IMG/VR virus record: IMGVR_UViG_3300026097_000011
Coordinates: 1-64,000 of that record
DNA length: 64,000 bases
Source of the DNA: a virus
Strand: one strand, 5' to 3'
The translations under genes and the position numbers were made by a program. The notes under the pieces are model-generated. The model was not told the DNA's origin, made no database searches, and saw only the letters and a program-made list of their open reading frames with translations. Positions within the stretch are counted from its first letter, which is position 1. Each line of letters starts with the position of its first letter. This document shows positions 1 through 15,573 of this stretch, piece by piece.

Positions 1-13
1 TGTCCGTTATGTA

Positions 14-226
14 TCATTTAACCCAATTCTTATGCATTTCACTTTCTCTGTGTACTCTTATCATATTAGTTTTTCCACATCTACACTGTGTTATTAGAAA
101 ATTTGTATTGTTTTCCATAGGTATATTATACAATTTATTTTCAAATTCACACTTATGAAAACGATACATAACAGTGTATAACCAAAATAGTGGGTTAGGT
201 ATGTTAATTGCCCATTTTTTCTTCAT
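14..226 (-). CDS. small cassette-like protein with a CxC/H zinc-type motif
   Basis: A 70-residue protein I do not recognise. The C-terminal third contains QCRCGKTNMIRVHRESEMH, in which two Cys and two or three His could bind a metal. It is the last visible gene of a minus-strand series of tiny genes separated by attC-like inverted repeats. The ATG at 226 follows the repeat at 244-298, and a partial copy of the next repeat begins after the stop (around 1-12). That placement suggests a gene cassette. The ORF itself is clear; the function is unknown. Confidence 0.6.
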   Translation of the reverse strand: MKKKWAINIPNPLFWLYTVMYRFHKCEFENKLYNIPMENNTNFLITQCRCGKTNMIRVHRESEMHKNWVK

Positions 227-243
227 ATCAAGTTTGTTTTTAT

Positions 244-298
244 ATTTAACATTTGTTTTTCAAAGTCCACTACTTCGGTTATATGTGAACCGTTAGCA
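244..298 (-). repeat. attC-like inverted repeat (cassette junction 4)
   Basis: Read on the minus strand it starts GCTAACGGTTCACATATAAC at the stop codon of the upstream gene and ends with GTTAAAT, which fits the integron R' consensus GTTRRRY. The core CGGTT-CACATAT-AACCG is a short hairpin. It is the shortest and least canonical of four such junctions. Confidence 0.45.
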
Positions 299-493
299 AG
301 CATACAACTGACCGTTAAGCATAAAACAAGGGTTTTCTCCCTTATTATATCTAACGTCAGGTGTTTTGTCAAACATTACCATATATCCAACAATCACCTT
401 GCTATCTAAATCACTCTTGATAATCTTGGTTACTTCTCCTTCTCCAAGAAATCCAGAGTCCTTAACTCTTTCACCTATCTTAAATCTTTTCAT
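293..493 (-). CDS. small cassette-like hypothetical protein
   Basis: A 66-residue protein of unknown function. The N-terminus (MKRFKIGERVKDSGFLGEG) and the following alternating hydrophobic strands look like a small beta-barrel of the SH3/KOW kind, as in proteins annotated only as hypothetical in cassette arrays. The stop codon (293-295) lies inside the first arm of an attC-like repeat, and another such repeat (515-576) ends about 20 bases upstream of the ATG, as expected for a single-gene cassette without its own promoter. Confidence 0.55.
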   Translation of the reverse strand: MKRFKIGERVKDSGFLGEGEVTKIIKSDLDSKVIVGYMVMFDKTPDVRYNKGENPCFMLNGQLYAC

Positions 494-514
494 ATTTTAA
501 AATTAAAGTACGCT

Positions 515-576
515 TGCTAACAACGGCTATATGTCCATATTCGTACCTCATACGGCACATAGCCAAAACGTTATAA
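515..576 (-). repeat. attC-like inverted repeat (cassette junction 3)
   Basis: On the minus strand: TTATAACGTTTTGGCTATGT at one end and ACATATAGCCGTTGTTAGCA at the other. The arms GGCTATGTG and CATATAGCC pair around a loop of roughly 20 bases. The outer boxes TATAAC and GTTAGCA approximate the R''/R' boxes of integron attC sites. It is the cleanest short copy in the array. Confidence 0.6.
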
Positions 577-586
577 ACAATAAAAA

Positions 587-823
587 TTAATGTTTAGGGT
601 GTTTTTTTATCTTAGCCCAATAACAAACTTTATTGTTTGCAACCGTGTGACCTCTTCTATCGCTACAAGGTGCATTTAATAACCATCTACCTCTATAAGA
701 TATATAACCTGTGTACTCGTTAAAATAGTCACACTCACTTCCATCTTTTAATAAACTTCTTACCAAAACTAAAACATTTACACATTCTTCTGGTTTTTCT
801 TTGGTTACGTCTATCCATTTCAT
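587..823 (-). CDS. DUF551-like small protein, cassette-borne
   Basis: The likely start is the ATG at 823 (MKWIDVTKEKPEECVNVLVL), because the seven residues upstream (from 844) lie inside an attC-like repeat. The pattern WIxVxxxKP near the N-terminus, then VLVLV, a central aromatic strand with GRW, and a late YWAKI resembles DUF551 proteins, short proteins of unknown role often found in phages and prophages. It sits between two attC-like repeats (836-966 and 515-576). The DUF551 assignment is by pattern only. Confidence 0.6.
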   Translation of the reverse strand: MKWIDVTKEKPEECVNVLVLVRSLLKDGSECDYFNEYTGYISYRGRWLLNAPCSDRRGHTVANNKVCYWAKIKKHPKH

Positions 824-835
824 AATTTTAAAAAT

Positions 836-966
836 ATATAACAACGTGTATAAACAAAAGCTATTTAAGTCTTTACCGTTGTTTTGTTAGTATTTATTTA
901 AGTTATTTTTAATCCAATATTTAATTCTTTTTTATACGCTTCAATTAATACACAATTCCGTTAGGC
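836..966 (-). repeat. attC-like inverted repeat (cassette junction 2)
   Basis: The upstream box in gene orientation is GCCTAAC (960-966 on the complement), which matches RYYYAAC exactly. The downstream box GTTATAT (836-842) approximates GTTRRRY. The arms pair imperfectly through GTGTATTAA and a TTTATACAC-like partner near 843-855, leaving a loop of roughly 90 bases. It occupies the entire gap between genes 973-1356 and 587-823. Confidence 0.5.
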
Positions 967-972
967 GTAATG

Positions 973-1356
973 CTACCCAAGTAGCCAATAAACAATAGCC
1001 TTTCTTCTTAAATTATCTTCTTCATCATATAAGTTTCCACCCATTACTGCTATCGAAAGTTTGTATTCTTTTTCTCGCACTTGTAAAATAGGATGTGACC
1101 AAACGCTATGTGAGTGAAGCATATTAGAAGTCCACTGTCCATTAGTGTTGTACTTAACATTAAAAATCCATTCAAATAATTTAGTCCAATACTTCATTAC
1201 CCCACAGTTACCCATTATGAACCCAAAAAATAGTGCGTATATAAACCACATCATAAAAAATGCTTCACTCGGTATTCCATCAATAAAAAGCATTGGTAAA
1301 AAGAATACAAACGAGTATCGCATATACAAGAAAGGCATTGTAATCAAACCACACAT
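973..1356 (-). CDS. small membrane protein, cassette-borne
   Basis: About 127 residues from the ATG at 1356, two bases after the GCCTAAC/GTTAGGC box of the upstream attC-like repeat. The frame stays open to an ATG at 1419, but those 21 residues would be encoded by the repeat itself, so the shorter start is preferred. Residues 15-75 are strongly hydrophobic (for example FFLPMLFIDGIPSEAFFMMW), giving two probable membrane helices. The C-terminal half is soluble with many His and Trp. Function unknown. Confidence 0.55.
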   Translation of the reverse strand: MCGLITMPFLYMRYSFVFFLPMLFIDGIPSEAFFMMWFIYALFFGFIMGNCGVMKYWTKLFEWIFNVKYNTNGQWTSNMLHSHSVWSHPILQVREKEYKLSIAVMGGNLYDEEDNLRRKAIVYWLLG

Positions 1357-1358
1357 AC

Positions 1359-1489
1359 GCCTAACAACAGCTATATGTAATGCCTCTTTTTTCTTTAATT
1401 TAGTTTCTGTATTATTCATTATTTTAGTCTTTTAAGTTAGTGTAGTAATTTATTCAAGGTCGGCACTACACATAGCCAAACTGTTATGA
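1359..1489 (-). repeat. attC-like inverted repeat (cassette junction 1)
   Basis: Long copy. Positions 1370-1384 (GCTATATGTAATGCC) pair with 1462-1477 (GGCACTACACATAGCC) around a loop of about 77 bases. In gene orientation it starts CATAACAGTTTGGCTATGTG and ends GCTGTTGTTAGGC; GTTAGGC matches the attC R' consensus. It separates the UV endonuclease gene from the first small cassette gene. Confidence 0.6.
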
Positions 1490-1515
1490 GTAATAAATTT
1501 TGATATATCTAATTT

Positions 1516-2421
1516 TTATAGGAAAAATTTACGATATTTAAATAGAGCTAGTTCCTTTGACTTTGCTTCAATTTCTATATCGAATATAGAACCAATATCA
1601 GGTATTTTACAGTATATATAATCAGAATGAGATCGCTCAATTACAGAATCATCCTCAAATAATTTACGACTATTACTAACGTGAGCAAGTGGACGAATAC
1701 CAGTTGGCCAAGTGGATGCAGCAAGCTCAGCTGCGTCGTCAGTAGATAAATCACCATCACAAAATAAATGGTGAAAGAAATCAAATGTGATAGGAATATC
1801 GATATGCTTGTATAAGCCATTGTATAAATCAACAACACTATATTGACTAGCTTTATCGTCGTTTTCTATAACTAATCTACGCTGAGTAGTATCAGCAAGT
1901 AATTTAAAATTGGTAACAAAACGTGCAAGTGTCGAATCTTTATCGCCATAGCTGCCGCCAACGTGTATATTGAGACTATACTTATGTGTGGCAGGTAGTC
2001 CCATAAGATCAAGTATGCGACTATGCTTATCAAGATCGTCAATAGAATTAAGGACTACTTTTTCAGTTGGCGAAGGCAATACACAATATTGACCTGGGTG
2101 AAAGCCTACACGCAAATCATTAGCTAATACATAGTCGCCAATTTGAGTGAGCAGGGATTGTATACTATCGAAATTTGGTAAATCCTCAAATCGATACTCA
2201 GACATCCAAGGAAATAAACTGCTTGAAAACCTAAAGACTCGGATGTCATGTTCGACATTCCATTCAAGAACTTTTAGTAAGTCTTGAAGATTAAGCTCGG
2301 CTAATTCGCCTGCATATTCAAGGCCTCGAGCTTTGAACGTTTTTTTGATCATGCCACGATTGGTAGTAATACCGAGTGGCTTAAGTGTTAGATTAATACA
2401 GCAATATCCTAAATTATTCAT
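1516..2421 (-). CDS. uvdE: UV-damage endonuclease (UvdE/UvsE family)
   Basis: 301 residues, the usual length of bacterial UvsE. These TIM-barrel, metal-dependent enzymes nick DNA immediately 5' of UV photoproducts and start excision repair. The sequence opens with NLGYCCINLTL and TTNRGM, and contains the family patterns FRFSSSLFPW (about residue 63), VGFHPGQYCVL (about 105), NIHVGGSYGDK (about 151), VIENDD (about 184) and TFDFFHHLFC (about 214), which hold the metal ligands. It could protect the packaged or replicating genome. The base composition seems slightly richer in GC than its neighbours, and an attC-like repeat follows it directly, so transfer is possible. Confidence 0.9.
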   Translation of the reverse strand: MNNLGYCCINLTLKPLGITTNRGMIKKTFKARGLEYAGELAELNLQDLLKVLEWNVEHDIRVFRFSSSLFPWMSEYRFEDLPNFDSIQSLLTQIGDYVLANDLRVGFHPGQYCVLPSPTEKVVLNSIDDLDKHSRILDLMGLPATHKYSLNIHVGGSYGDKDSTLARFVTNFKLLADTTQRRLVIENDDKASQYSVVDLYNGLYKHIDIPITFDFFHHLFCDGDLSTDDAAELAASTWPTGIRPLAHVSNSRKLFEDDSVIERSHSDYIYCKIPDIGSIFDIEIEAKSKELALFKYRKFFL

Positions 2422-2449
2422 ATTGTTATATTACTAAAAATATATAGAA

Positions 2450-2611
2450 TTATTCACTTTTGTTTCTTCTATTATATTTTTTTGTAGATCCATATGGACA
2501 GTGTTTACATTTATTATTACAACAAAATCCTCTTTTTAAATGGTATTTCTCAGTAAATACTTTGTACCCATCCTTATTGATATAATAATCTTCTCCTTTT
2601 ATTAATCCCAC
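2450..2611 (-). CDS. DUF5522-like short Cys-rich protein
   Basis: Small gene of about 53 codons ending TAA at 2450. The translated core contains YKVFTEKYHLKRGFCC followed by NNKCKHCPYG, which matches the DUF5522 pattern (VFTxxYHLxRGxCCxxxCxHCPYG): four or five Cys that probably bind zinc or an iron-sulfur centre. No ATG is present. GTG at 2609-2611 overlaps the stop of the upstream gene by ten bases and is my choice; an AAGGAGAAG sequence lies just downstream, so a shorter start at a rare codon is possible. Role unknown. Confidence 0.6.
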   Translation of the reverse strand: MGLIKGEDYYINKDGYKVFTEKYHLKRGFCCNNKCKHCPYGSTKKYNRRNKSE

Positions 2612-3174
2612 CAGTGTCTAATATTATGTTCAATGAATGCCCATAATAAACGATGGGCTTTTTCTTGTTTAAGTCTAGATTCTTTCATCAACTTTCTTTG
2701 TATTTCATCGATTTCAGCTATTCGTTCAGGAGTTTCAGTAAGTTCATAGTTTTGTTTAAGAAATGAGCTATCATCTCCTTTTCCAGTATCAATGAATTTA
2801 TGTTCTAACAGTTCAGCTCCATATAGTTCTACCATCTTAGCTTGATATTCACAGGAATAATCTTCGTCATATACCTTCTTCATCAATGCAATTGCAGTTC
2901 TTACTCTTGTAGCACTATGTTTTGATTCTACACACATAGCATTATCTGATTCCATTCGCTCTGCGATATCTTCTAATTTAGCTGAGAATATTTCAGTTGC
3001 ATATCTATAATCAAAATCATATCCTTTCCAAATCATTGGAACATACTTTCGCAATTGTTTAAATTGATGATTCTTTCTACGAAAAAAGTATTTAAAATTC
3101 CTCCATACTTTCGCAATTCCCTTAACTCTGATTTTATCGAGTATATTGGGATCCTTTATTCCTTTACTTATCAT
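2602..3174 (-). CDS. conserved phage protein of unknown function
   Basis: 190 residues, mostly helical and charged. There is a basic N-terminal segment (KVWRNFKYFFRRKNHQFKQL, residues about 23-42) and a C-terminus rich in Trp and His (LLWAFIEHNIRHWWD). I recall similar proteins as unnamed in large phages but cannot assign a fold. Its ATG overlaps the stop of the upstream gene (3174), so the two are translationally coupled in a minus-strand operon running from about 6.8 kb down to 2.4 kb. Confidence 0.65.
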   Translation of the reverse strand: MISKGIKDPNILDKIRVKGIAKVWRNFKYFFRRKNHQFKQLRKYVPMIWKGYDFDYRYATEIFSAKLEDIAERMESDNAMCVESKHSATRVRTAIALMKKVYDEDYSCEYQAKMVELYGAELLEHKFIDTGKGDDSSFLKQNYELTETPERIAEIDEIQRKLMKESRLKQEKAHRLLWAFIEHNIRHWWD

Positions 3175-3569
3175 TAGTCAAGTGTTGGCCAAACGAACTC
3201 ATAATGTCCATCTTTCATTTGATTTACTTTAATAGTTCGAATGATCTTTCCATTCTCTTTTCCATATTCAATCTCAGCTTGAACTCCAACTGATTGCTTA
3301 ACTAAGTTATCTGACATTTCAACTACCCATATTTCTTCACTCCAATCAATGAACGAGTAATCGATCTTTTTCCAAACTTCCCATGTACCAAGTAATTCCT
3401 TTTCGTACTTGCCATCATGTATAGATGCTTGTACAATTGGATGCGACATTGAAATTGGAGAAAGTGGAATGTGACCCATCTTAATAATTTCATAAGCTGC
3501 ATGATTTGCCATCTCAAAACTTTTTTCCTCTACACGAGTGTAAGGAATTGCTACATATATTCTTTTCAT
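3174..3569 (-). CDS. DUF1937 / nucleoside 2-deoxyribosyltransferase-like protein
   Basis: 131 residues. It starts MKRIYVAIPYTRVEEKSFEM, followed by GHIPLSPISMSHPI, a WxxWKKIDYSFID segment, a VVEMSDN strand and a SVGVQAEIEYG helix. This order of conserved blocks is typical of DUF1937/DUF4406 proteins, which share the nucleoside 2-deoxyribosyltransferase Rossmann-like fold. The final Glu (VQAEIEY) corresponds to the region of the catalytic Glu. A role in base exchange or nucleotide salvage is plausible but inferred. The start overlaps the upstream gene's stop as ATGA. Confidence 0.65.
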   Translation of the reverse strand: MKRIYVAIPYTRVEEKSFEMANHAAYEIIKMGHIPLSPISMSHPIVQASIHDGKYEKELLGTWEVWKKIDYSFIDWSEEIWVVEMSDNLVKQSVGVQAEIEYGKENGKIIRTIKVNQMKDGHYEFVWPTLD

Positions 3570-3793
3570 AACTTTGCACTTATTTGTTCGAATGCCAGTA
3601 CTGGATTCTCGGTTGCGAATCCATCGATACCACCATCCGGTTCTGTAAATAATTTACCAACATCATATTTAGCCCAAATAAATTGGCCAAATCTTAAGTC
3701 ATTTTCATTTCTTCCTTTACCATATTTAATATGCCATTTGACTAACTCATCCATTAGAAGATCACTAGTCAATTCTAAATTACTTGCTTCCAT
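3566..3793 (-). CDS. small hypothetical phage protein
   Basis: 75 residues starting MEASNLELTSDLLMDELVKW. The open frame extends 35 codons further upstream, but that part is antisense-like and covers the neighbouring gene, while the ATG at 3793 gives a 14-base overlap typical of this operon. The central part RNENDLRFGQFIWAKYDVGK followed by EPDGGIDGFATEN looks like a compact alpha/beta domain. I do not recognise the family. Confidence 0.55.
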   Translation of the reverse strand: MEASNLELTSDLLMDELVKWHIKYGKGRNENDLRFGQFIWAKYDVGKLFTEPDGGIDGFATENPVLAFEQISAKL

Positions 3794-4040
3794 GTTTTTG
3801 GTGTAATGCGTTAGTAAATGTTTCTTCTCCTCCTGTACTTGAATTTTTAAATACAATATGAGTAGTCCCAGGAGTTTCTCTAAATACCTTCTTAGCAAAT
3901 GCTTTAGGATAGTGAATGTTCACATATGATTTAATTGATTTTCCAGGGCAATATACTTCCGCTGTTATTGGCGAGTCTTTCTCTGCTAATTTATTCTTTC
4001 TGAATTCTGTTCCTACAAAGAACTTATCTTGTTTAGACAT
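3780..4040 (-). CDS. small hypothetical phage protein
   Basis: 86 residues, basic, starting MSKQDKFFVGTEFRKNKLAE. It contains a proline/glycine segment (YCPGKSIKSYVNIHYPKAFA) and ends in a low-complexity tail with STGGEETFT. No known domain was recognised. It is tightly packed between the epimerase gene (end 4041) and the next gene (overlap 14 bases), so it probably belongs to the same transcript. Confidence 0.55.
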   Translation of the reverse strand: MSKQDKFFVGTEFRKNKLAEKDSPITAEVYCPGKSIKSYVNIHYPKAFAKKVFRETPGTTHIVFKNSSTGGEETFTNALHQKHGSK

Positions 4041-4913
4041 TTATTTTATTTTATGTTTAATATATCTAGTTAATGAATGTTGAGGGTTCCAATCTAATTT
4101 TTCATTAGTATCTGTTTCTATCTCAACTGCGTTAATACGTTCTCCTCTTCTTTCAGGAATAAGTCGATATTTATGATCAAATAATTCAGCAACTTCCTTA
4201 ATTGTGTAAGTACGTCCTGATCTTAAGTGCCATTCTCCGTTTAATCCTTTTTCAACCGAGGCAATTACTCCTCTTACTATATCATCAATATGTGTAAAGT
4301 CCCTAGACTGAGTCCCTGGTGAAACTACTGTTAATTCTTCTCCATTATCATATTGTCTCTCGAATATTCCAACTACTGTTGCATAATCTCCTGATGTAAT
4401 TTGACCTGGACCGTACACATTAAAGAAATAGCAAATTTCATATTCTAAATTATACCACTCTTTGTAGTTTTTTATAAGTTCTACTCCTTTTGCTTTCATC
4501 CAAGCATATGGAGATAGATTCTCATCCTTACCATCGTTTCCGAATTTTGAACTTGATGCTGAATATATTAACTTAGCTCCCCATCGTCTGCACATTTCAA
4601 GAACTCTAGTCGTACCGTGTAAATTTGTTTTAAGTACATAATCGATGTCTTCAAAAGAAGATACTATTCTAGAGTATTCACCGAAATGAAATACTATATC
4701 GAACGTACCTTTATCCTTTTGGAAATACTTTTCAATATCCCAAGTGTCTGCATGGATTACGTCTATTCCCTTTGGAATATTATTGAAAGTTCCAGTGAAA
4801 AAATTATCTAGAATGGTAATCTTCGAATGAGGATATTTTTCAAGAATTTGTTTAATTAGATTTGATCCTACAAATCCGGCTCCACCTGTTACTAATATTT
4901 TCTTATTGTTCAT
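4041..4913 (-). CDS. NAD-dependent epimerase/dehydratase (UDP-glucose 4-epimerase-like)
   Basis: About 290 residues of the extended short-chain dehydrogenase family. The Rossmann NAD motif GGAGFVGS is at residues 10-17. The catalytic Ser region is IYSASSSKFG and the Tyr-x3-Lys pair is SPYAWMKAK. Substrate-side motifs FFNVYGPGQ and SRDFTHIDDIVRG follow, as in UDP-hexose epimerases. The start at 4913 (MNNKKILVTGG) is preferred because it places the nucleotide-binding strand at the N-terminus and overlaps the upstream gene by only 11 bases. It probably supplies a nucleotide sugar, perhaps for the glycan island at 41.5-49.9 kb, though it lies far from it. Confidence 0.85.
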   Translation of the reverse strand: MNNKKILVTGGAGFVGSNLIKQILEKYPHSKITILDNFFTGTFNNIPKGIDVIHADTWDIEKYFQKDKGTFDIVFHFGEYSRIVSSFEDIDYVLKTNLHGTTRVLEMCRRWGAKLIYSASSSKFGNDGKDENLSPYAWMKAKGVELIKNYKEWYNLEYEICYFFNVYGPGQITSGDYATVVGIFERQYDNGEELTVVSPGTQSRDFTHIDDIVRGVIASVEKGLNGEWHLRSGRTYTIKEVAELFDHKYRLIPERRGERINAVEIETDTNEKLDWNPQHSLTRYIKHKIK

Positions 4914-5205
4914 CTTCACCAGCACTTTCAGGTTCCCCAATTGTTATCCACATTCCTTCTGTAAAATCTGATGTATCTTCAACAACATCATCAAGAGCAA
5001 TTACTTGAATTTGTCCACCGGTGTTAGCAACCATTATAAGACTATCTTTAGGACCAAAATATCCTTCTATTTCTCCTTTGGCTTTAACTAGTATTCCTTC
5101 TCCGATTGGTATGATTGATTGTAATGCTTGGGCAAAAATTAACGTCCCAGCACTAAGTTCCTCTTGTGAATATTCTCGAGGTTCTTCGTTTGATAAATCT
5201 GTCAT
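4903..5205 (-). CDS. acidic hypothetical protein
   Basis: 100 residues, acidic at both ends (SNEEPREYSQEEL at the start, EPESAGEDEQ at the end). The middle has regular hydrophobic strands (GEGILVKAKGEIEGYFG, SLIMVANTGGQIQVIAL) that suggest a small beta-sandwich or barrel. No family recognised. Its stop overlaps the epimerase start, and the ATG at 5205 is the only reasonable one. Confidence 0.55.
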   Translation of the reverse strand: MTDLSNEEPREYSQEELSAGTLIFAQALQSIIPIGEGILVKAKGEIEGYFGPKDSLIMVANTGGQIQVIALDDVVEDTSDFTEGMWITIGEPESAGEDEQ

Positions 5206-5241
5206 TATAATTGAATTTAATAGTATTATACAGATTTATTT

Positions 5242-6801
5242 TTACTGGTTTAGGTAAAAGTCTAATTTTTTTTGCATTTTATCTAGTTTTGAACCAGATT
5301 GTTTACCGAGAAGTTGTTTTTTAGCCTTTTCATAATTAAGATCTAATAATGCTCTTTCTAATCGCTTTTTAGATTCTTCAGGGTTTGATATATTATGTGT
5401 TAATGACATAAGACCTCCTCTTATTCCGATTTCATATATTCTATCTATTTTACGCTTACTGTTAATTCCTTTATTATGTCTAAATTGTGATCTATCTTCT
5501 GGAACTAATTTATATAACGAGTCAATTAGAGTATTGGATTCAGCAATTTGATCTTGAGTAAGTTCTTCTTTTTCATTATCTTCTATTTCTTCTAGTTCCT
5601 TTTGCCTTTTAATAATATCTTCCACTTGATCTTCTATTTTATTAGGATCAAGAGTATCGAGCTTAGACCATTTCTTTTTGTCTTCGTCTGACATTCCATT
5701 TTTTCTAAGCTGTACTACTGACTTCATGTAATTATAATATAACTCACGCAACCTAGCAGTTAGACTAGAATCTCTCTTAAATGATACTTTAGTTGAGGCT
5801 TTTCCACTAGATATTTCCTCAATATCACTTACAAGTTCATCAGGTTCTTTATCTTCTATCATTTCATTATAAATATCTACTTCTAATTGAAGATCGGGAG
5901 TAATTTTAACCTGATCTCCATCTACATAGAAGGAATCGTCCTCTAATAAAATAGTAGATACATCATCTACTTCGATGTCACCTGCTGGAGGAGTCCAATA
6001 ATCTCCAGGGTCGTATGTTTCGTTAATAGTGGCATTTGTTGAATATACGATGTTGAATAGTGCTCCATCTTTATCATTTGATAATCCTAGCAGTTTACGA
6101 TCCTCGTCACTTATTACTCCTAATCCAAGATCAGTTGGAAATAATCCAATTCCATCCAAATAATCTATGTATGCATCAGGTATTTTATCTTGATTGGATG
6201 TCAACGTCATAGCTATATCTGTAATATAATCATCTATTATACCCTCATTATGTTCTACATTAGTTAAATTATCTCCGCCTTCATGAACATCAACATCAAC
6301 TAGTTTTAAAACAGTAGGCCTACCGGTGATCAATTTTAATACTTCTCCTAATAGATATGATTTTGCAGATTCATCACTAGACGTTGAGTCTTTTGATTCT
6401 AATATTAGCTCATGATTAAACAAACGTGTTCCTATTTCTCTAAGTGCACTACCTATATCTAGATGTTTCAGAGTAATCCAATGAAATGGAGTCTTATTAT
6501 GATTAAGAACTACACTCGGCCTACCAGGAGTTTTCATATTAAATACTCCTTTTAAACCATCTTCTCCTTTATAATCAATTTTTCTACCTGCAAATTTATT
6601 TCCACCTTTGTGAATAACTCGATATATAGTATCACCTATAAATACCATCTTTATTCCGGGTTTTATCTCTGCATATCCATTAATAGTAGTTACATAAAGG
6701 AACCGACCTTCTTTAGTTGGGCGTCCCTTGATCAATATAACGGATCCCCTCCCTATTGATTCATTGAGTTTTTCGGAATAAGGTAAAATGTACTTGTTCA
6801 T
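5242..6801 (-). CDS. large hypothetical protein with a capsid-targeting-like N-terminus
   Basis: 519 residues. The first residues MNKYILPYSEKLNE|SIGRG fit the tag seen on many proteins here, with LNE as a possible prohead-protease site. The N-terminal 120 residues are rich in short beta strands (GSVILIKGR, FLYVTTINGYAEIKPG). Residues about 270-330 are strongly acidic, and the rest is helical and charged. The gene is divergent from the next one, with an ATAAATAAAT-type element in the 50-base gap. It is likely a virion or internal head protein; the function is unknown. Confidence 0.6.
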   Translation of the reverse strand: MNKYILPYSEKLNESIGRGSVILIKGRPTKEGRFLYVTTINGYAEIKPGIKMVFIGDTIYRVIHKGGNKFAGRKIDYKGEDGLKGVFNMKTPGRPSVVLNHNKTPFHWITLKHLDIGSALREIGTRLFNHELILESKDSTSSDESAKSYLLGEVLKLITGRPTVLKLVDVDVHEGGDNLTNVEHNEGIIDDYITDIAMTLTSNQDKIPDAYIDYLDGIGLFPTDLGLGVISDEDRKLLGLSNDKDGALFNIVYSTNATINETYDPGDYWTPPAGDIEVDDVSTILLEDDSFYVDGDQVKITPDLQLEVDIYNEMIEDKEPDELVSDIEEISSGKASTKVSFKRDSSLTARLRELYYNYMKSVVQLRKNGMSDEDKKKWSKLDTLDPNKIEDQVEDIIKRQKELEEIEDNEKEELTQDQIAESNTLIDSLYKLVPEDRSQFRHNKGINSKRKIDRIYEIGIRGGLMSLTHNISNPEESKKRLERALLDLNYEKAKKQLLGKQSGSKLDKMQKKLDFYLNQ

Positions 6802-6851
6802 AAATTTATTTATTCTTCTAATAAATAAAACTATAAAAATTATACTAAACT

Positions 6852-8840
6852 ATGTCGTCTAAATTTAATGAACAAACAGGACTATATGAGCAGGTTAATG
6901 TAGATAACAATCAGCTTGATGTAAATTCAGAAACAAAAAATGAAGTAACTACCGCTGAAAAAGCTGCTATTGCTAATGGAAACACTGGTAAGCTGCATGC
7001 CTTTAAAATAAACCCTTCTAATTTAGATTCAATTAATCAACTTATATCAGGCCAAATTAAAGAATGGAAATCTGAAACTCCACTTATTGTTTTAGGAAAA
7101 GATGGAACTCTTGGAGGAGAAGCAATGTTAAATGGTAAACCTCTATATTTGATGTTTAGAATAGCTTCTAAAAAAGAAAGAGCATCTAGTGAATTACAAT
7201 TAGAATTGAGCGATAGAATATATTTACTATTGAATACTAGCCCAGTTGAATTATCTAGTATTTTAAAGAACGCTGATAATATGGATCATAGAGTTAATGT
7301 TGCAGCTAAAGGACCAAATGGTGTTGAAAACACAGTTGCAATTTGGAGTGAAAATGTTTCTAATGAGCCTACTCCGGATGATTCTACTAAAACTGAAAAT
7401 ACTAATAATGTTAACGTAGATATGGAAGCTCAAATTGAAAATCCAGGAACTGCTGCAGGAATTTCAGGAACAGTTGAAGATGGAATTAATGAACAAAATG
7501 CTACAATGCCTCCAACGTATGATCCTAGTAAACATAAAAATGATAAAATAGATCCTAGTCTTTTGTCAACTGAAAAAGGAGAAAAAGCACAGGCATCAAA
7601 TAGTATGACTAAGGGACTTAATAAAAACTTATTAGAAGTTAATAATGAATTGGGCAAAAATGCCAAGATTATAACTCGAAAGGATAAAACCAAAGTAATT
7701 AAATTAAACCTAACTAAGAAATATACTGGAATTGATGGAGTTGCTTATTTTTATAGTAATGGTAGAATGTATATAAAGGCAAGTGGAAAGTTATTTGCAA
7801 AGGGTTCGTATAAAGATGGGGGGAAAACAATATCAGTGGATGGAGGAAAAACTATTAAAAATGAAAGTATATATGGAAACCTAAAGACAATTGCTAAAGG
7901 AACTAAATCCACATCTAACACATCCTCTGCATTTAAAACTCAAGAAGAAGGAGACGCATTTAGAAAATGGGCAAATTCAACAGATGAATTAAAGAAAAAA
8001 TACGGAAAAGAATCTAAATTCGATTTAGATGCTAAGGGTAAATTCAATAACTCATATATTAATAATGCATTCAGTGCAGCTAAGGAAGATTATTTAGCAT
8101 ATATGAAAAATAAAAAGAACTTCAAATACAAAGAAGGTGATATAGTTTATTATAGAATTAATTCGGATGGAAAAGCTGAGATGGAGAAAGACATGTTATC
8201 TGGAGATGTTAAAGGAGCAGTTGATAAGCAAAAAAAGGAAATGGAAAAGGATAGAAAGACTACTCCAGTTGAAGATCAATATAACTCATCAGAAGCAATT
8301 GCAACTAGTTTTGATATGTACAGGCAAATAACAGAAGAAGGTCTAATTGATGAATTATCAAGTAAAGAAGTTGACGATCAAGCAGGATTAATTAAAGATA
8401 TGAAAGCCGGTAATCTTAAGAAAGGAAAAGTAATTAAACAAATCGATGACAATACTGTTAAGGTAATTAATACAAAATCTGAAAAAGAAGAAACTATTAA
8501 GCTATCAAATATTGTTCCAAAAGAAGATGCTAGAAATGCAGCTATTAAGATAAAAGCAAGTAGAGAAAAGGAAGAAAAAAAGAAAAAGGAAAAGAAAACA
8601 GATTTAGAAAAATCAGAAGAAGAATTAAACAAAGAAAAAGAAGAAAGCAAATCTATTAAACAAAAGCTTAAAGATAAAAGAAAAGAAAAAAGAAATCTTA
8701 AAAAGGCTAATCGTAAAGATAAGAGACAAAAGAGAAAAAAGAAAAAGATAGAAAAAGTTCAAAGTAAAATAGACGATGCAAGTGAATCGGTAGTTTATGA
8801 CTTTTCAGAATTTATGGAAAAAACAAATAAATTGAACTAA
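6852..8840 (+). CDS. large charged hypothetical protein with a Lys/Glu-rich C-terminus
   Basis: 662 residues. The N-terminal 190 residues form a folded-looking alpha/beta region, then a disordered Asn/Thr/Glu stretch. Residues about 280-350 are strand-rich (GIDGVAYFYSNGRMYIKASG). Residues about 570-640 are almost all Lys, Glu and Arg and should form a long charged helix. The extreme C-terminus, YDFSEFMEKTNKLN, repeats at the other end the YxxF(I/M)xE tag found at the N-terminus of many proteins here. The stop overlaps the next ATG by one base. It is probably a virion protein, possibly DNA-associated because of the basic tail. Confidence 0.6.
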   Translation: MSSKFNEQTGLYEQVNVDNNQLDVNSETKNEVTTAEKAAIANGNTGKLHAFKINPSNLDSINQLISGQIKEWKSETPLIVLGKDGTLGGEAMLNGKPLYLMFRIASKKERASSELQLELSDRIYLLLNTSPVELSSILKNADNMDHRVNVAAKGPNGVENTVAIWSENVSNEPTPDDSTKTENTNNVNVDMEAQIENPGTAAGISGTVEDGINEQNATMPPTYDPSKHKNDKIDPSLLSTEKGEKAQASNSMTKGLNKNLLEVNNELGKNAKIITRKDKTKVIKLNLTKKYTGIDGVAYFYSNGRMYIKASGKLFAKGSYKDGGKTISVDGGKTIKNESIYGNLKTIAKGTKSTSNTSSAFKTQEEGDAFRKWANSTDELKKKYGKESKFDLDAKGKFNNSYINNAFSAAKEDYLAYMKNKKNFKYKEGDIVYYRINSDGKAEMEKDMLSGDVKGAVDKQKKEMEKDRKTTPVEDQYNSSEAIATSFDMYRQITEEGLIDELSSKEVDDQAGLIKDMKAGNLKKGKVIKQIDDNTVKVINTKSEKEETIKLSNIVPKEDARNAAIKIKASREKEEKKKKEKKTDLEKSEEELNKEKEESKSIKQKLKDKRKEKRNLKKANRKDKRQKRKKKKIEKVQSKIDDASESVVYDFSEFMEKTNKLN

Positions 8841-9037
8841 TGCCACTTCCAGTATCAATAAAGGAATTTGTAAAAGATCCAGTTAAATCACTATTGTTTT
8901 TAACTATATGTGCTATTATGTATTTGTATGTAGATAATAAAATGATGTACACAGGTTTAATAGAAAAACAAGATGAAAGAATAATTCTACTTGAGGAAAA
9001 AGTAAATGATCTATATGATAAGTTAAGCAAGAAATGA
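8840..9037 (+). CDS. small single-pass membrane protein
   Basis: 65 residues. One hydrophobic segment at about 18-31 (SLLFLTICAIMYLYV) is followed by a heptad-patterned tail (ERIILLEEKVNDLYDKLSKK). Overlaps with both neighbours (TAATG on the left, ATGA on the right) show tight coupling. With the next gene it makes a pair of small membrane proteins with coiled coils, which could be holin- or spanin-like; nothing in the sequence proves it. Confidence 0.55.
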   Translation: MPLPVSIKEFVKDPVKSLLFLTICAIMYLYVDNKMMYTGLIEKQDERIILLEEKVNDLYDKLSKK

Positions 9038-9555
9038 AAAACAAACCTGTAGTAATAACGATCATTATAGTATTTTTAGGAATAATCGCATTAGATCAAT
9101 TTGGAAAATATTTACTTAATGAGGATATTAAAGAAAAGGATAAGAAGTATGAAGAGACTTTAAACCATGTTGATAGTACGATACATATAGTTGATAAGCA
9201 AATAAATAAACGCAAAATATTAGAAATTGAGCAAAAGAATTCTATTAAAAAAATTGATTCTCTAACAGACAAGCTTAATAATCAAACTCCAGAAGTTCAA
9301 TACATAACTGATGTTCAATACGTAACTGAAACTTTAGAAATTGCTCCTAAGTTAGAAAAACTAGAAATGGTGGAAATGTCTGAATTCAAAATGATAAAGC
9401 CTATTGCTAAACTAAAAGACTCAGTTATTTATAATTATATCGAAATAGATTCGATCACTTATATATATGATACGATTAACATGATATATGTTGACACTAT
9501 TCTAATAACTGATCCTAGGATAATAAAGAAAATTAAAAGAAAGTATTTAGATTAA
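9034..9555 (+). CDS. membrane-anchored coiled-coil protein
   Basis: 173 residues. An N-terminal signal-anchor (VVITIIIVFLGIIALDQFG, residues about 5-23) is followed by a long charged helix (residues 30-90) with coiled-coil spacing. A strand-rich C-terminal part contains repeated I-Y-I and TxDVQYVTET-like segments. The layout, one membrane helix and a long extracytoplasmic coil, resembles inner-membrane spanins, but the endolysin gene is 18 kb away. The 3' end overlaps the convergent NADAR gene by nine bases. Confidence 0.5.
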   Translation: MKNKPVVITIIIVFLGIIALDQFGKYLLNEDIKEKDKKYEETLNHVDSTIHIVDKQINKRKILEIEQKNSIKKIDSLTDKLNNQTPEVQYITDVQYVTETLEIAPKLEKLEMVEMSEFKMIKPIAKLKDSVIYNYIEIDSITYIYDTINMIYVDTILITDPRIIKKIKRKYLD

Positions 9556-10011
9556 TTCAGATCTAATTTCCATCCATATTTTACCTAGAATATTTTCACC
9601 TTCCCATGTATCATCATCTAATTTCTTAGCTCCCCAGAATAAACCAGATCCCCTTGGGCGTGATGTTACGTCTTCGTATATTGGTAAACCGTCCGTCTTT
9701 ACTAGTTGACTTACGAGTCCCCGATGTTGCTCACATTTCAACCTAACACACATTCGCATGTTTTCTATATCCAGGCGTCCCATTGGAGTGATATCCATTA
9801 ATGATTTGTATTTTTTAGCCTTCATCTTAGCACCCATTGGACTCTTTTCAGCCCTAATTGCTTCTTGGATTTCTTCATCTTTGAATCTAAGTGCTTGAAA
9901 TAAAGCTTCTGATGTTCTCCAAGTCTTTCCATTATATTCAATTGGATAAGGAGACATATTCCCTAACCAACCAAACGGTAATGCTACTTTTGTAAATGAT
10001 ATACTTTCCAT
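9547..10011 (-). CDS. NADAR-family protein (ADP-ribose/N-glycosidase type)
   Basis: 154 residues, the length of stand-alone NADAR (YbiA-like) domains. Diagnostic blocks are in order: GWLGNMSPYPIEYNGKTWRT with EALFQALRF (residues 15-43), KSPMGAKMKAKKY (about 56-68), GRLDIENMRMCVRLKCEQH (about 78-96), GSGLFWGAKK and WEGENILGKIWMEIR at the end. NADAR proteins cleave N-glycosidic bonds in ADP-ribose-type substrates; some remove ADP-ribose from guanine in DNA and act against DarT toxins. In a phage a counter-defence role is an inference. The gene stands alone on the minus strand between plus-strand genes. Confidence 0.85.
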   Translation of the reverse strand: MESISFTKVALPFGWLGNMSPYPIEYNGKTWRTSEALFQALRFKDEEIQEAIRAEKSPMGAKMKAKKYKSLMDITPMGRLDIENMRMCVRLKCEQHRGLVSQLVKTDGLPIYEDVTSRPRGSGLFWGAKKLDDDTWEGENILGKIWMEIRSELI

Positions 10012-10031
10012 AATTTAATAATACTCAAATT

Positions 10032-10047
10032 GAATAAATAATAAAAA
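10032..10047 (+). promoter_or_regulatory. late-promoter-like element
   Basis: GAATAAATAATAAAAA lies 10 bases before the ATG at 10058. It contains ATAAATA, close to the T4 late promoter TATAAATA, followed by the A-rich extension seen at several other gene starts in this window. Confidence 0.55.
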
Positions 10048-10057
10048 CGCTATATTG

Positions 10058-11188
10058 ATGAGAGCACTTAGCTTTAAAGATTTTTGTATCAATGAGGGAG
10101 CATCGGTAAACAAACGAAACGGTATGGTTACTTTAAACTGGAGTGATGATAGAAACGATGAATATGAATTTCTTAAGACTAATAATACAATGGAGGTCGC
10201 TAATATTAGAAAAACCGGAATAGGAAATTTTCCAATTTACTTTGGACTATCGGTAGACCAAGATAGATTATCGGAATTACAAAATAAAGCAGATGTTAAA
10301 ATGACATTAGACTGGTTAAAACAGTCTAAGATAGAAGGAGGATTAAAATCTATAGTTCAATTTGCTCAGCCTACTATTAGCTATATTAAAAAACAACATT
10401 CAATCGATTACGTGATCCCCATGGGATCCACAAAGGGATTATCTAAAGACCTAAGTGATGCAATTTCTGAATTAATCGGAAACGCAAATGTTGTTCCATT
10501 GGATAAGTATGAATTTGATAATATATCTCAGGCCATAGATTGGGAATATGTAGAATCATATGAAGATAATCCTAAAACTAAGTCAATATTGCCTCAATTA
10601 ATTGCGATAATCAGAGAAGAAATAGATACAACATCACCTGAGGTTCTAAATAGATTAAGAAAAGTAACAGATTGGCAAGAGCTTAAGGGACTACTACTAA
10701 GAAGTAATCCAAATAATAGATATTTTGATAAAGAAAATGAGATTGTTTGGAAAAATGATTCATTTAAAATACGAAGTAGTGGAGAATTATGGGCAGGATT
10801 AAGACAAGCTTTTAAAACTAAGTATCAAACTCCTAAGAGAAGTGGAGAATTTGGAAGTCCTGAATTTATGGATGCATTTAGAAAATGTGTTTTAAATAGT
10901 AAAACAATGCTACTTGTTGATGATAACACAAGATCTAAGAAAGATATATCAAATATAATAGATACATTATTAGAAGTAGGAAATAATATTTTAGCCGATA
11001 TACCAAATAGACCCACACTAGATCAATCAACATGGACAAAGAGAATAATATCATATGTACTTATTTTCGTACCAGACCACAAAGCAAAAATATCAAATAA
11101 GGTTAATTTATCTAAGGATGATGAAGTTAAATCAATTGAACCTTTTTACAATATTAATCAAGAAATAGAAGATTTCGAAGATAAATAA
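10058..11188 (+). CDS. tagged protein with phosphoribosyltransferase-like motif
   Basis: 376 residues from the ATG at 10058; a TTG one codon earlier is less likely. It begins MRALSFKDFCINE|GASV, one of the best capsid-targeting-like tags here. Later YVIPMGSTKGLSKDLSDAIS and MLLVDDNTRSKKDISN resemble the two conserved loops of phosphoribosyltransferases of the ComF type (the PRPP loop is usually VDDxxTTG), but the TTG part is changed to TRS. The similarity is weak and could be only fold-level. A late-promoter-like element precedes it. I infer an internal head protein that enters the host with the DNA. Confidence 0.55.
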   Translation: MRALSFKDFCINEGASVNKRNGMVTLNWSDDRNDEYEFLKTNNTMEVANIRKTGIGNFPIYFGLSVDQDRLSELQNKADVKMTLDWLKQSKIEGGLKSIVQFAQPTISYIKKQHSIDYVIPMGSTKGLSKDLSDAISELIGNANVVPLDKYEFDNISQAIDWEYVESYEDNPKTKSILPQLIAIIREEIDTTSPEVLNRLRKVTDWQELKGLLLRSNPNNRYFDKENEIVWKNDSFKIRSSGELWAGLRQAFKTKYQTPKRSGEFGSPEFMDAFRKCVLNSKTMLLVDDNTRSKKDISNIIDTLLEVGNNILADIPNRPTLDQSTWTKRIISYVLIFVPDHKAKISNKVNLSKDDEVKSIEPFYNINQEIEDFEDK

Positions 11189-11207
11189 TTAAAATAATTT
11201 ATATACA

Positions 11208-11945
11208 ATGGCAGAAAATAACAGAGTTTTAAACCATTCAGAATTCGCGGCTAAGTATAACCAACAATCTGAACAAGACATCGCTGCTAGCTACTCAGAA
11301 ATGGAATCAGCATCAGATAACTTTCAAGAAGGATTTGATGAAACATCATACGAAGACGGGCAAACTGGTCCAAAAAGACCTATAGCTCAAGGAAATCAGG
11401 AAACGCCCGACTCACCTGATTCAATGCCAACTCAACCTACTGAAGGAATGGCTGCACCTACTGAAGAAGAAGATCACATTACTCCAGAAGAAATAGAAAA
11501 TGATTTTGAATCAGAAGAAGATGAAGAAGATGATTTTGAAGATGATGGATCAGGAGATCCAGAATCTGGAAATCCAGAAGAAGGATCTGAAGACGAAGAG
11601 GATGACGAAGAAGACGAAGAGGATGACGAAGAAGAAACTAACGAGTCCGTAAAAGTTATTAAAAATCGTATAATTTTAGAATCATTTGATGATTTCGAAG
11701 CAAGAGGTCCTATTTCTATTCCTTCTAATGCACGTGAAGATATATACCAAGATGAACTTGAAGCAATTGAACTTGATTTCGAAGGAGATGAAGAAGACGA
11801 AGAATGTTTTGTAACATGTAAATCATGTGGATCTAAAAAAGAAATAGAAAGAGGATCATATCCAATGGGAGTTGCGAATCAAGAGGATCCAAACTCATGG
11901 TGGCAAGGAGCTAAAATGGGAATGATGTGTGAAAGCTGTAAATAA
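11208..11945 (+). CDS. very acidic protein with C-terminal zinc ribbon
   Basis: 245 residues. It starts MAENNRVLNHSEFAAKYNQQ, a variant of the local tag. Residues about 85-145 are mostly Glu and Asp. Then comes an internal tag-like segment (RIILESFDDFEARG, about 153-166). The C-terminus has a four-Cys zinc ribbon: CFVTCKSCG, with further Cys in MMCESCK at the very end. The acidic run could mimic DNA or bind basic proteins. It is followed two bases later by the next gene, so they are co-transcribed. No family recognised. Confidence 0.6.
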   Translation: MAENNRVLNHSEFAAKYNQQSEQDIAASYSEMESASDNFQEGFDETSYEDGQTGPKRPIAQGNQETPDSPDSMPTQPTEGMAAPTEEEDHITPEEIENDFESEEDEEDDFEDDGSGDPESGNPEEGSEDEEDDEEDEEDDEEETNESVKVIKNRIILESFDDFEARGPISIPSNAREDIYQDELEAIELDFEGDEEDEECFVTCKSCGSKKEIERGSYPMGVANQEDPNSWWQGAKMGMMCESCK

Positions 11946-11946
11946 T

Positions 11947-12306
11947 ATGAAAAATTATAAAAAACATAGGGTTATAGAATCATTTGGTGATTTCATGGGA
12001 GCAACTAAGGCTATACAAAAGGGAAACTCATCTCAACCTGCTCAGTTTGGAGCAAATCCAGACGTTGATGAAAATCAAGGTAAATTACCATTTGAATTTG
12101 AAAGACGTCCAGAAATAGGAGAAGAAGCCATTTTAAGTAAACTTACTTTAATGCTTGAGAAAATACAAGCAATTGCAGAAGCTGGATATAATAAATCAAG
12201 GAATGTAAATGGAGAAGTTAGTCCATACATTGAACGTGAAATTGAATTAGCATATAAGCATTTAAGAGAAGGTTATTTAAGATTAATGGACATGAAATCA
12301 CATTAA
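11947..12306 (+). CDS. small tagged hypothetical protein
   Basis: 119 residues from the ATG at 11947, one base after the upstream stop; an in-frame ATG at 11929 lies inside the upstream gene and is unlikely. It starts MKNYKKHRVIE|SFGDFMGATK, so a VIE cleavage site and a second SFGDFM motif are both present. The rest is helical (EIGEEAILSKLTLMLEKIQA, then HLREGYLRLMDM). The 3' end overlaps the convergent gene by nine bases. Confidence 0.55.
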   Translation: MKNYKKHRVIESFGDFMGATKAIQKGNSSQPAQFGANPDVDENQGKLPFEFERRPEIGEEAILSKLTLMLEKIQAIAEAGYNKSRNVNGEVSPYIEREIELAYKHLREGYLRLMDMKSH

Positions 12307-12510
12307 TTCATCACCTAGATTACTATCAAATAATCTATCATCCCAATTTAATAATACATCAGATAGCTCGTCATTAATCATGGCGAGCATTTCTATTTTA
12401 GAATAACCATTTGGTCCTTTTCCAGTTAAAATATTAGTTTCAATATTCCTTATCTTCTTTAGAATATCAGTCTCTAATCCTTTTTTAACTATTTCTAATT
12501 CTTTGTCCAT
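12298..12510 (-). CDS. small helical hypothetical protein
   Basis: 70 residues, acidic, predicted almost entirely helical (MDKELEIVKKGLETDILKKI, then YSKIEMLAMINDELSDVLLN). It has no recognised family. It is the last gene of a short minus-strand group (12298-13359). Confidence 0.5.
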   Translation of the reverse strand: MDKELEIVKKGLETDILKKIRNIETNILTGKGPNGYSKIEMLAMINDELSDVLLNWDDRLFDSNLGDELM

Positions 12511-12516
12511 AGTATT

Positions 12517-12768
12517 TTATACTTGATTTATCAATTCAGTTTTCTTTTTTCTACTCAATTGTTTTATGGCATATTCGCGTTTAAGTGCTTCTGATTTATT
12601 TGAAAGCTCTTCTATATAAAGTAAAGTGAGTGGACCTCGTCCCCTTGTATACTTAGCACCTTTACCACTTATATGAGTTTCTAATCTTTTTTGAATATCA
12701 GTTGTTATTCCTGTGTAATAGCTTTTGTCTCCGCACTCAAGGATGTAGACGTACCAGTTTTTTGACAT
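12517..12768 (-). CDS. GIY-YIG endonuclease domain protein (YhbQ/UPF0213-like)
   Basis: 83 residues from the ATG at 12768 (MSKNWYVYILECGDKSYYTG). YVYILEC and YYTGIT are the two halves of the GIY-YIG motif. Then come R at KRLETHISGKGAKYTRGRGP (catalytic Arg region), LTLLYIEELSNKSEALKREY (Glu) and a basic C-terminus KQLSRKKKTELI. That is the length and order of stand-alone YhbQ-like proteins, which act as structure-selective nucleases. With no extra DNA-binding domain it is unlikely to be a homing enzyme. Confidence 0.85.
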   Translation of the reverse strand: MSKNWYVYILECGDKSYYTGITTDIQKRLETHISGKGAKYTRGRGPLTLLYIEELSNKSEALKREYAIKQLSRKKKTELINQV

Positions 12769-12779
12769 ATTTCTATTTC

Positions 12780-13070
12780 TCAAGTTGGGTCATATGAATG
12801 ACTTGTTATTCCCTCAATTACAGGAACCCATACCTTTCTAGTATATGGAGTAGTTTCATCTATGATTTGACTAGTATATTTTGAGTTGTGTTTCTCTAAA
12901 TATTCCTTTCTATTATTAATCATACATGGAACATATATTTCCTTATATAGAGTCGCATATTTATTAGGAAGCATAATTCTCATTGTCTCCCATACATCAG
13001 CATCTGATTCAAATTCAGGTTTATCATTAACTTCTCATAGACCAGTTGATAATTTATACTTATGCAACAT
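12780..13070 (-). pseudogene. small gene interrupted by an in-frame TGA
   Basis: Starting from an ATG at 13070 that overlaps the upstream stop, the frame reads MLHKYKLSTGL, then TGA (13035-13037), then EVNDKPEFESDADVWETMRI and continues for some 70 further codons to 12780. The part after the stop contains VWETMRIMLPNKYATLYKEI and reads like a normal phage protein. Either a nonsense mutation has split the gene, or translation begins again at the ATG at 12983 (67 residues). TGA is used as a true stop at several ATGA overlaps in this genome, so general recoding is not the reason. Confidence 0.5.
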
Positions 13071-13359
13071 ATTCTAAATTATATTTAAGAGTAACATAAA
13101 ATGGAAGCAATTGTCTATTGACATCATCTGCTTTACCAACTGCTGCCTCTAAGTTATTATCTAAAACCGCTTTAACAAAACCACCAGGTTGAGTATTGAT
13201 TCCCCAGTTATTCATTACAATACTAGTACCTATATTAGTAATATGTTGTAATGCTTCAGGATCCGCCATTAATTGAATAGGAATGAGGTGATTATTTCTA
13301 ACCATATACTCACTAACTGCAATTTTAATTCTGCTTTCTTGTTGTTTATTGTATTCCAT
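13060..13359 (-). CDS. hypothetical phage protein
   Basis: 99 residues starting MEYNKQQESRIKIAVSEYMV. Mixed helical protein with a Pro/Gly loop in the middle (NNWGINTQPGGFVKAVLDNN). I do not recognise a family. A TATAAATA sequence sits three bases upstream of its ATG, and it heads the minus-strand group 12298-13359. Confidence 0.5.
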   Translation of the reverse strand: MEYNKQQESRIKIAVSEYMVRNNHLIPIQLMADPEALQHITNIGTSIVMNNWGINTQPGGFVKAVLDNNLEAAVGKADDVNRQLLPFYVTLKYNLEYVA

Positions 13360-13410
13360 ATTTATATAATACTAAATATTTCAAATAAATAAAATAAAAG
13401 ATATATTAAG

Positions 13411-13779
13411 ATGGGTTACATTAGATTAAAAAGATTAAATGAACATCATGATGATGATATGCCAGCTGAATTATTAAATATGACAATTGGTGAGATGTTA
13501 GACAAAGCTGAAGAGTTAGACACAAAGGGAGACGCAGAGTATGAGGTTATAGAGGATGCACTAAGAGCAATTGGGGATAAGATATTAGGAACCGGATACG
13601 AAACAGAAGTAGATTTTACTCCAGATGGAGTTGAGAATGCAGGAGATAACGAGGATGAAGATCATGATCCACTATCTCATCAAATAGAAACATATGATGA
13701 AATAGCTGGACAGCAAGACATGGGACAAGGCCAAGGTGCTCCAGATAATGGTATGAATATGGATAACTTCACATTTTAA
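13411..13779 (+). CDS. acidic tagged hypothetical protein
   Basis: 122 residues, very acidic. It begins MGYIRLKRLNE|HHDDDMPAE, where RLNE is a candidate prohead-protease site. A helical region (MLDKAEELDTKGDAEYEVIE) is followed by a disordered Gln/Gly/Asp-rich C-terminus. An ATAAATAAAATAAAA element lies about ten bases upstream. Its stop overlaps the next ATG (TAATG). It is the first of a run of five small genes with tag-like ends and is likely a virion-internal protein. Confidence 0.55.
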   Translation: MGYIRLKRLNEHHDDDMPAELLNMTIGEMLDKAEELDTKGDAEYEVIEDALRAIGDKILGTGYETEVDFTPDGVENAGDNEDEDHDPLSHQIETYDEIAGQQDMGQGQGAPDNGMNMDNFTF

Positions 13780-14066
13780 TGAGTGTTAAATCGTACATAT
13801 CGTTTTTAAAGGAAGATATAGGTGGTGCTATTACAATGAACAGAACACCCCCTAGTAAATTAAATGATCCTAAGCTTAATGTTCAACAACCTAGAACAAT
13901 TGACACAGGTAGAGGTGGATCAATTCCATTTCACTGGAATAATTCCCCAGGTACACAAGCAGGAGCTAGATATGGAGCAAATCCACGTGAAAAAAATCGT
14001 GTTATGACATATGAAGAATTCATGGAAGCTCAAAAAAAGAATTCACAGAAAGAAAATAACGAATAA
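13779..14066 (+). CDS. small protein with tag-like motifs at both ends
   Basis: 95 residues. The N-terminus MSVKSYISFLKE|DIGGA has the YxxFxxE pattern, and the C-terminus NRVMTYEEFMEAQKKN repeats it. The centre is rich in Pro, Asn, Gly and Arg and probably unstructured. It is co-transcribed with its neighbours (one-base overlap on the left and one base before the next ATG). If both ends were cut by the prohead protease, only the basic middle would remain. Confidence 0.55.
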   Translation: MSVKSYISFLKEDIGGAITMNRTPPSKLNDPKLNVQQPRTIDTGRGGSIPFHWNNSPGTQAGARYGANPREKNRVMTYEEFMEAQKKNSQKENNE

Positions 14067-14067
14067 T

Positions 14068-14813: not shown

Positions 14814-14819
14814 TTTAAC

Positions 14820-15554: not shown

Positions 15555-15573
15555 ATAAATAAATAAATATAAA

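Follow-up and report, generated by a model that had tools for sequence, protein, structure and literature searches.

In textbook integrons, the folding strand of the recombination site is the non-coding strand. Clusters of integron-type gene cassettes without an integrase (CALINs) have been described in virulent phages (Polaribacter phage P12002L, Tetrasphaera phage TJE1, and Pseudoalteromonas phage PH101; Qi et al., 2023, PMC9892861). The same paper reports that, of six attC sites taken from virulent phages, IntI1 recombined five, P12002L_attC2 among them (bottom strand only), and that P12002L_attC1 failed. According to the account in PMC9668308, an additional, IntI-specific domain defines IntI. 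For Bacteroidetes, published surveys list almost no complete integrons, and the IntegronFinder 2.0 description adds only Salinibacter ruber.

The stretch of DNA analysed here (“the window”, 64,000 nucleotides) corresponds to bases 1-64000 of a virus record of 138,587 bases, and a run of small genes and attC-like sites lies at the left end of that record. An earlier note had interpreted this run as an array of integron-like cassettes carried by a phage, and had called this an unusual way to acquire genes. The array stands as the best reading, supported by covariance-model matches, by recurrence of the sites, and by their orientation; arrays of this kind have already been published for phages (Qi et al., 2023, PMC9892861). 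We consider it likely that the contig carries, at its left end, integron-type gene cassettes clustered without an integrase (CALIN-like), gained and exchanged in trans via a host recombinase. Like the published phage CALINs, the locus has attC-like sites between small genes and no integrase, and P12002L carries the same site family. It differs from them in that its contig, of 138.6 kb, has huge phages as relatives, in that we document a flip of the sites relative to Flavobacteriales arrays, and in being known here from sequence. The array has four sites and no integrase nearby, in agreement with the rule for CALINs in the description of IntegronFinder 2, which asks for at least two sites without a nearby integrase. 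The remark that no integrase is visible held for the whole contig, where neither a TIGR02249 match nor the Flavobacteriales recombinase discussed below was found; the contig ends within the array, and an integrase may lie beyond its edge.

Genes and sites at the left end of the contig

Read along the minus strand, the order is a UvdE gene, site E, a 127-aa gene, site D, a 78-aa gene, site C, a 66-aa gene, site B, a 51-aa gene, and CATAACGGACA at the contig edge. The four complete attC-like sites (1489-1359, 966-836, 576-515, and 298-166, within 1.3 kb) share one anatomy: a YAAC core, a spacer, an arm of 9-17 nt, a loop, a pairing arm, a short spacer, and a GTTR core. All four are imperfect inverted repeats with the cores and paired inner arms that characterize attC and CALIN sites, and at each of them one ORF ends at the 5' end and the next starts at the 3' end, leaving a single gene between sites in a uniform direction (4/4). 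This agrees with the earlier description of four small minus-strand genes (973-1356, 587-823, 293-493, and 14-169) separated by imperfect inverted repeats, with gene starts just after the repeats and gene ends running into them. The genes are co-directional from 6801 down to 14.

Site E (1359-1489, minus strand, 131 nt) runs from TCATAAC to GTTAGGC and scores 64.0 bits (E 3.4e-12) with R1, the covariance model described below. Cassette gene 1 (973-1356, minus strand, 127 aa) begins with an ATG 2 nt after GTTAGGC and stops 6 nt before GCCTAAC. It had been listed as an ORF at 1419-973, for which the start at 1356, 2 nt past GTTAGGC, is more likely. The N-terminal half of its product is hydrophobic, and we found neither a PHROG match nor a relative in phages or viral contigs. 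Site D (836-966, minus strand, 131 nt; GCCTAAC to GTTATAT) is the strongest of the four (75.7 bits, E 5.6e-15). The positions given earlier for the core motifs of these two sites, GCCTAAC at 1359-1365 and GTTAGGC at 960-966, are correct.

Cassette gene 2 (587-823, minus strand, 78 aa) has a weak match to phrog_1261 (E 0.033) and no relative in phages or in 296 Flavobacteriales genomes (E≤1e-4). It is followed by the shortest site, C (515-576, minus strand, 62 nt; arms GGCTATGTG/CATATAGCC; 35.5 bits, E 2.1e-5), which has a near twin in viral contig L104. Cassette gene 3 (293-493, minus strand, 66 aa) has its stop codon in the 5' core of site B. It matches neither Pfam nor PHROGs, and no relative was found in phages or the 296 Flavobacteriales genomes (E≤1e-4). 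Site B (166-298, minus strand, 133 nt; 55.7 bits, E 3.1e-10; 39.0 with a simple scanner) has TGCTAAC as its 5' core and GTTATGT as its 3' core. The GTTAAAT that had been proposed as a site end does occur at 244 (ATTTAAC at 244-250, GTTAAAT on the minus strand), but it lies in the loop of this site. Cassette gene 4 (14-169, minus strand, 51 aa) starts inside the 3' core of site B (ATG at 169) and has a weak match to phrog_15191 (E 0.0017), no Pfam match, and no relative among phages. A probable fifth attC-like site (1-11, minus strand) is cut by the contig end. Only CATAACGGACA is present, placed after the stop of gene 4 as with the other sites, and this remnant, too short for R1, is not matched by it. 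Rfam gave no match in the window.

Directly before site E, the gene at 1516-2421 (minus strand; PF03851, E 7.6e-55) encodes a UvdE-type UV endonuclease, whose viral relatives are up to 74% identical. Of the 80 viral loci that were kept, 21 (L009-L029) contain such relatives, at 54-74% identity, and show no gene synteny with this contig; the gene is perhaps a mobile phage repair gene. It is a phage gene and possibly the first cassette of the array; its role as a cassette remains a guess, because no attC-like sites were found near its relatives in viruses.

The genes of the record, by comparison with PHROGs, include a portal, a major head protein, a head maturation protease, a DNA polymerase, helicases, and a topoisomerase II, a set that gives it the appearance of a phage. 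Among annotated phages, the helicase matches best to 735-kb uncultured phage genomes (40% identity) and UvdE to a 642-kb uncultured phage (49% identity). These nearest relatives, uncultured huge phages of 642-735 kb (LR756501-LR756503), suggest that the record probably represents one piece of a huge-phage genome. The earlier label “T4-like” is loose, given the best match of the helicase. Partial synteny with several viral contigs (L089-L094) extends over window positions 3566-16000, a block that leaves the UvdE gene and the array outside, and an NAD-dependent epimerase/dehydratase gene at 4041-4913 is kept in L090-L094. Shine-Dalgarno-like motifs precede just two of 54 window ORFs of at least 150 aa. 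Such scarcity is expected for Bacteroidota, which most likely include the host of this phage.

The site family in phages and Flavobacteriales

We built R1 from 19 complete sites of phages and viral contigs, none of them from the window, and excluded the P12002L relative of site D from training. These sites (training set A3; set A2 held 21) were picked by eye among matches of the simple scanner, which is too loose alone and was used only for this purpose. Over 142,587 bases including the whole contig, R1 gave four matches at E≤10, and these are the four window sites (E 5.6e-15 to 2.1e-5). The earlier note had proposed scoring the repeats with an attC covariance model, and R1, a model of this analysis trained without the window sites, matches all four. 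AT-rich phage DNA is rich in hairpins, and the scanner scores other places in the contig too, as would be expected of chance inverted repeats; the restriction of R1 to the four sites, with a next best score of 9.7 bits in window positions 1-6000 with filters off, makes chance an extremely improbable origin.

The sensitivity of R1 varies between searches. L006 and L133 went unmatched once, though matches were obtained for L135, which comes from the phage of L006, and for the record of L133; another search recovered a single site of P12002L, in a different position, and missed one of the four window sites. In other viruses, 17 loci with a relationship to the contig or its UvdE gene gave no R1 match (E≤0.1), and strict two-arm pattern scans gave no matches. 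A one-arm pattern yielded nine bacterial matches, among which only that in Mesonia oceanica was judged attC-like, from sequence context.

Related sites occur in other phages. By Blast of positions 1-2500, the region of site D (818-962) shares 71.6% identity with positions 39101-39244 of Polaribacter phage P12002L, with shorter matches to Cellulophaga phage phi17:1 and Tenacibaculum phage JQ. Similar hairpins lie between genes in all three genomes, and these three isolates carry sites of the ~131-nt family. A pattern for the left half of the site matched 23 viral contigs, of which 14 match R1 (13 directly and L133 by way of its record), some being copies of each other. One viral contig (L104:9500-14256, IMGVR_UViG_3300032212_000067) has about ten small genes between complete sites or 5' half-sites that directly precede the start codon. 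A gene there is duplicated together with the half-site upstream of it, at 12040-12303 and 13776-14039. Half-sites consisting of the 5' half only are also found in phages P12002L and JQ, and as matches of ~195 nt in bacterial arrays.

The secondary structure of the sites is conserved in relatives, as in attC and CALIN sites, part of the sites compared having been picked for complementary arms. Throughout the training set the AAC/GTT cores do not vary, and they lie at a long distance from the main stem; loops of ~70 nt are retained.

Among bacteria, 196 Flavobacteriales genomes were searched and 62 have R1 matches (E≤0.001); since only 17 candidates were scored per genome, the counts per genome are lower bounds. 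None of six genomes of phyla other than Bacteroidota was matched. Ten bacterial array stretches hold 82 matches. In 78 bacterial matches aligned to R1, 91.1% of cells are paired, vs 74.2% after shuffling, in an alignment that is fitted to the model and so favours pairing; the covariation score in the same fitted alignment is 0.450 vs 0.136 shuffled, and wobble pairs are kept at two positions (68/78 and 77/78). The repeats thus recur elsewhere, in phage isolates, viral contigs, and Flavobacteriales genomes. The search of Bacteroidota chromosomes suggested by the earlier note, which had asked after the cassettes themselves, succeeded for the attC-like sites and failed for cassette proteins 2 and 3, and in the lack of Flavobacteriales relatives of these genes no cassette common to phage and bacteria is demonstrated.

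Site direction in phages and bacteria

The sites are asymmetric, and each therefore has a direction. In the bacterial arrays (66 sites, compared alongside 32 viral sites), the strand opposite to the site holds 48 ORF ends and 47 ORF starts, vs 15 and 4 on the same strand. We had considered that bacterial genes might lie on the site's own strand, and rejected this, as the 15/66 ends and 2/66 starts obtained in that test are near random rates and the opposite strand fits. This set comprises 66 of 82 rows, after dropping 14 of ~195 nt that resemble half-sites, one that was cut off, and one opposite-strand duplicate. An independent bacterial set of 46 sites gave genes on the opposite strand in 39, on the same strand in three, and undecided in four (39/42 decided). 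It was drawn from 58 rows, without seven of L186 (a repeat of L165), one of ~195 nt, and four near or at locus ends or beside the recombinase. The phage-type direction in this set (3/46; L189 and L200) possibly marks cassettes of phage origin.

Viral sites have the reverse arrangement. In 34 sites from 14 loci (L006, L127, and L134 excluded as repeats, and half-site rows excluded), genes are on the site's strand in 31, on the opposite strand in one, and undecided in two (31/32 decided), and all four window sites have the gene on the site's strand. The difference between viral and bacterial orientation is strong (Fisher 2.7e-16), with a certainty that is overstated because neighbouring sites of an array depend on each other; the contrast is seen over 14 viral and 12 bacterial loci. 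With loops replaced, folding is better for the strand of the site than for the complementary strand in 24/24 bacterial, 23/23 viral, and 4/4 window sites. Taken together with the gene strand, this places the folding strand on the non-coding strand in bacteria and on the coding strand in phages. The attC hallmark of folding on the bottom (non-coding) strand is accordingly found in the Flavobacteriales arrays and in none of the four window sites, folding energy being a proxy for the recombination strand. Given this reversal with respect to the bacterial arrays, the phage sites are putative members of the canonical attC class.

With the flip, it is the transcript that carries the stable fold, and this keeps a second explanation alive: the phage sites could descend from attC and now act, without recombining, as intergenic RNA hairpins, that is as weak terminators or as processing or stability elements in mRNA. 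The better-folding strand is the coding one in phages, so the mRNA folds, and G-U pairs are conserved; the sites are also packed tightly between stop and start codons, and Qi et al. (PMC9892861) mention the view that weak terminators are present in attC sites. The invariant cores far from the main stem and the ~70-nt loops, however, go beyond the needs of a terminator, and the same site family makes up recombinase-linked arrays in bacteria. We regard the RNA-hairpin explanation as rather unlikely.

Direction also bears on a chimeric assembly, in which the first 1.5 kb would come from another replicon and be wrongly joined to the phage. The array occupies the extreme end of the contig, the junction was not found in any sister contig, and UvdE loses its similarity to viral relatives at the DNA level near 1514. 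Against this, all four sites have the phage-type orientation (p 2.6e-5 at the bacterial rate of 3/42, if sites are independent), which makes a piece of host chromosome unlikely; the recurrence of such sites in complete isolate genomes argues against that join as well. The site grammar continues across the junction, with the UvdE stop 26 nt before site E, and the genes are co-directional on both sides of it. The possibility of a chimera, which the earlier note had raised against its own reading, is therefore improbable with respect to a host chromosome, and a join to the array of another phage is possible.

The recombinase beside the bacterial arrays and the proposed exchange of cassettes

A tyrosine recombinase of ~380 aa adjoins the array in Mesonia oceanica (G001) and in a second genome (G097). 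Relatives of this recombinase occur in 53 of 196 Flavobacteriales genomes (E≤1e-50), together with sites in 36 (Fisher 1.3e-10). Attention to the neighbourhood of the gene revealed 58 attC-like sites in 14 of 20 loci fetched; all 58 point at the recombinase and 53 are on its 3' side. Four of the six loci without sites have <1.4 kb of sequence on that side. We rejected the idea that the genes of the arrays point at the recombinase: the sites do, and the genes run away from it in its own direction. Inside one bacterial array, two identical genes for a 200-aa tyrosine recombinase-like protein (L159:2103-2705 and 6328-6930), unlike the recombinase at the array end, are perhaps a repeated mobile element.

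The ~380-aa protein scores above the cut-off of NF040815 (XerA type; 235 vs 220), with 4a8e and 5hxy as its best structure matches, and below that of TIGR02249 (190.5 and 206.6 bits vs 265). Residues 177-245 of IntI4 (2a3v) face only residues 278-303 of the recombinase, and the TIGR02249 match breaks after position 177, which indicates that the IntI-specific domain is missing. A search of 296 Flavobacteriales genomes with TIGR02249 (E≤1e-60) gave no matches and carries little weight, the controls being likewise silent. The ~380-aa recombinase was not found in 12 virus records (this contig and 11 others) in a search that detected the Mesonia control.

The Flavobacteriales arrays resemble sedentary chromosomal integrons in being tandem arrays with one gene per attC-like site and a tyrosine recombinase beside them, and differ in that this recombinase lacks the IntI additional domain and falls below the TIGR02249 cut-off; no attI was identified. 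The orientation of the genes, which lead away from the recombinase and share its direction, recalls the reverse-intI integrons of Spirochaetota as PMC9668308 presents them, although the recombinase family and the phylum are different. In contrast to XerA-like recombinases (NF040815; PDB 4a8e, 5hxy), which it otherwise matches, the Flavobacteriales enzyme has an extra N-terminus of ~100 residues and a cassette array as its neighbourhood. We found no earlier report of this system or of the flip in the open-licence literature, and as far as these searches show, the Flavobacteriales system and the consistent difference between phages and bacteria are new.

Under the cassette reading, which we prefer, the unit would be one small gene and one attC-like hairpin site of a ~131-nt family that Flavobacteriales chromosomes also carry. 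The phage, most likely infecting Bacteroidota, would acquire and swap such units in trans: a single strand of the site would fold and be recombined by a recombinase of the host, not one encoded by the phage, and the candidate enzyme is the ~380-aa Xer-type tyrosine recombinase that adjoins many bacterial arrays. By analogy with the virulent-phage attC sites recombined by IntI1, one of them from P12002L, the window sites may recombine. Counting against this reading are that the folding strand is the coding strand, that the bacterial recombinase has no IntI domain and scores under the TIGR02249 cut-off, that cassette proteins 2 and 3 lack relatives in the Flavobacteriales genomes searched, that the array is at a contig end, and that P12002L_attC1 failed with IntI1.

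We propose tentatively, as plausible though short of probable, that an integron-like system, so far unrecognised, may be widespread in Flavobacteriales, combining ~131-nt attC-like sites with a Xer-type recombinase devoid of the IntI domain, and that their phages carry mirror-image cassettes with the same sites flipped. If the proposal is true, the host recombinase would trade phage cassettes among phages in trans, and a phage cassette captured by a host array would land opposite to the host cassettes, so that the gene pools would be kept apart. The flip provides a simple, testable rule by which the choice of strand would keep or break gene flow between phage and host. If the arrays are functional, about one third of the sampled Flavobacteriales would share a gene-exchange currency with their phages, and current tools would overlook it, the recombinase being no canonical IntI. 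The same type of hairpin in Flavobacteriales arrays and in other phages suggests that phages share the gene-swapping currency of bacteria.
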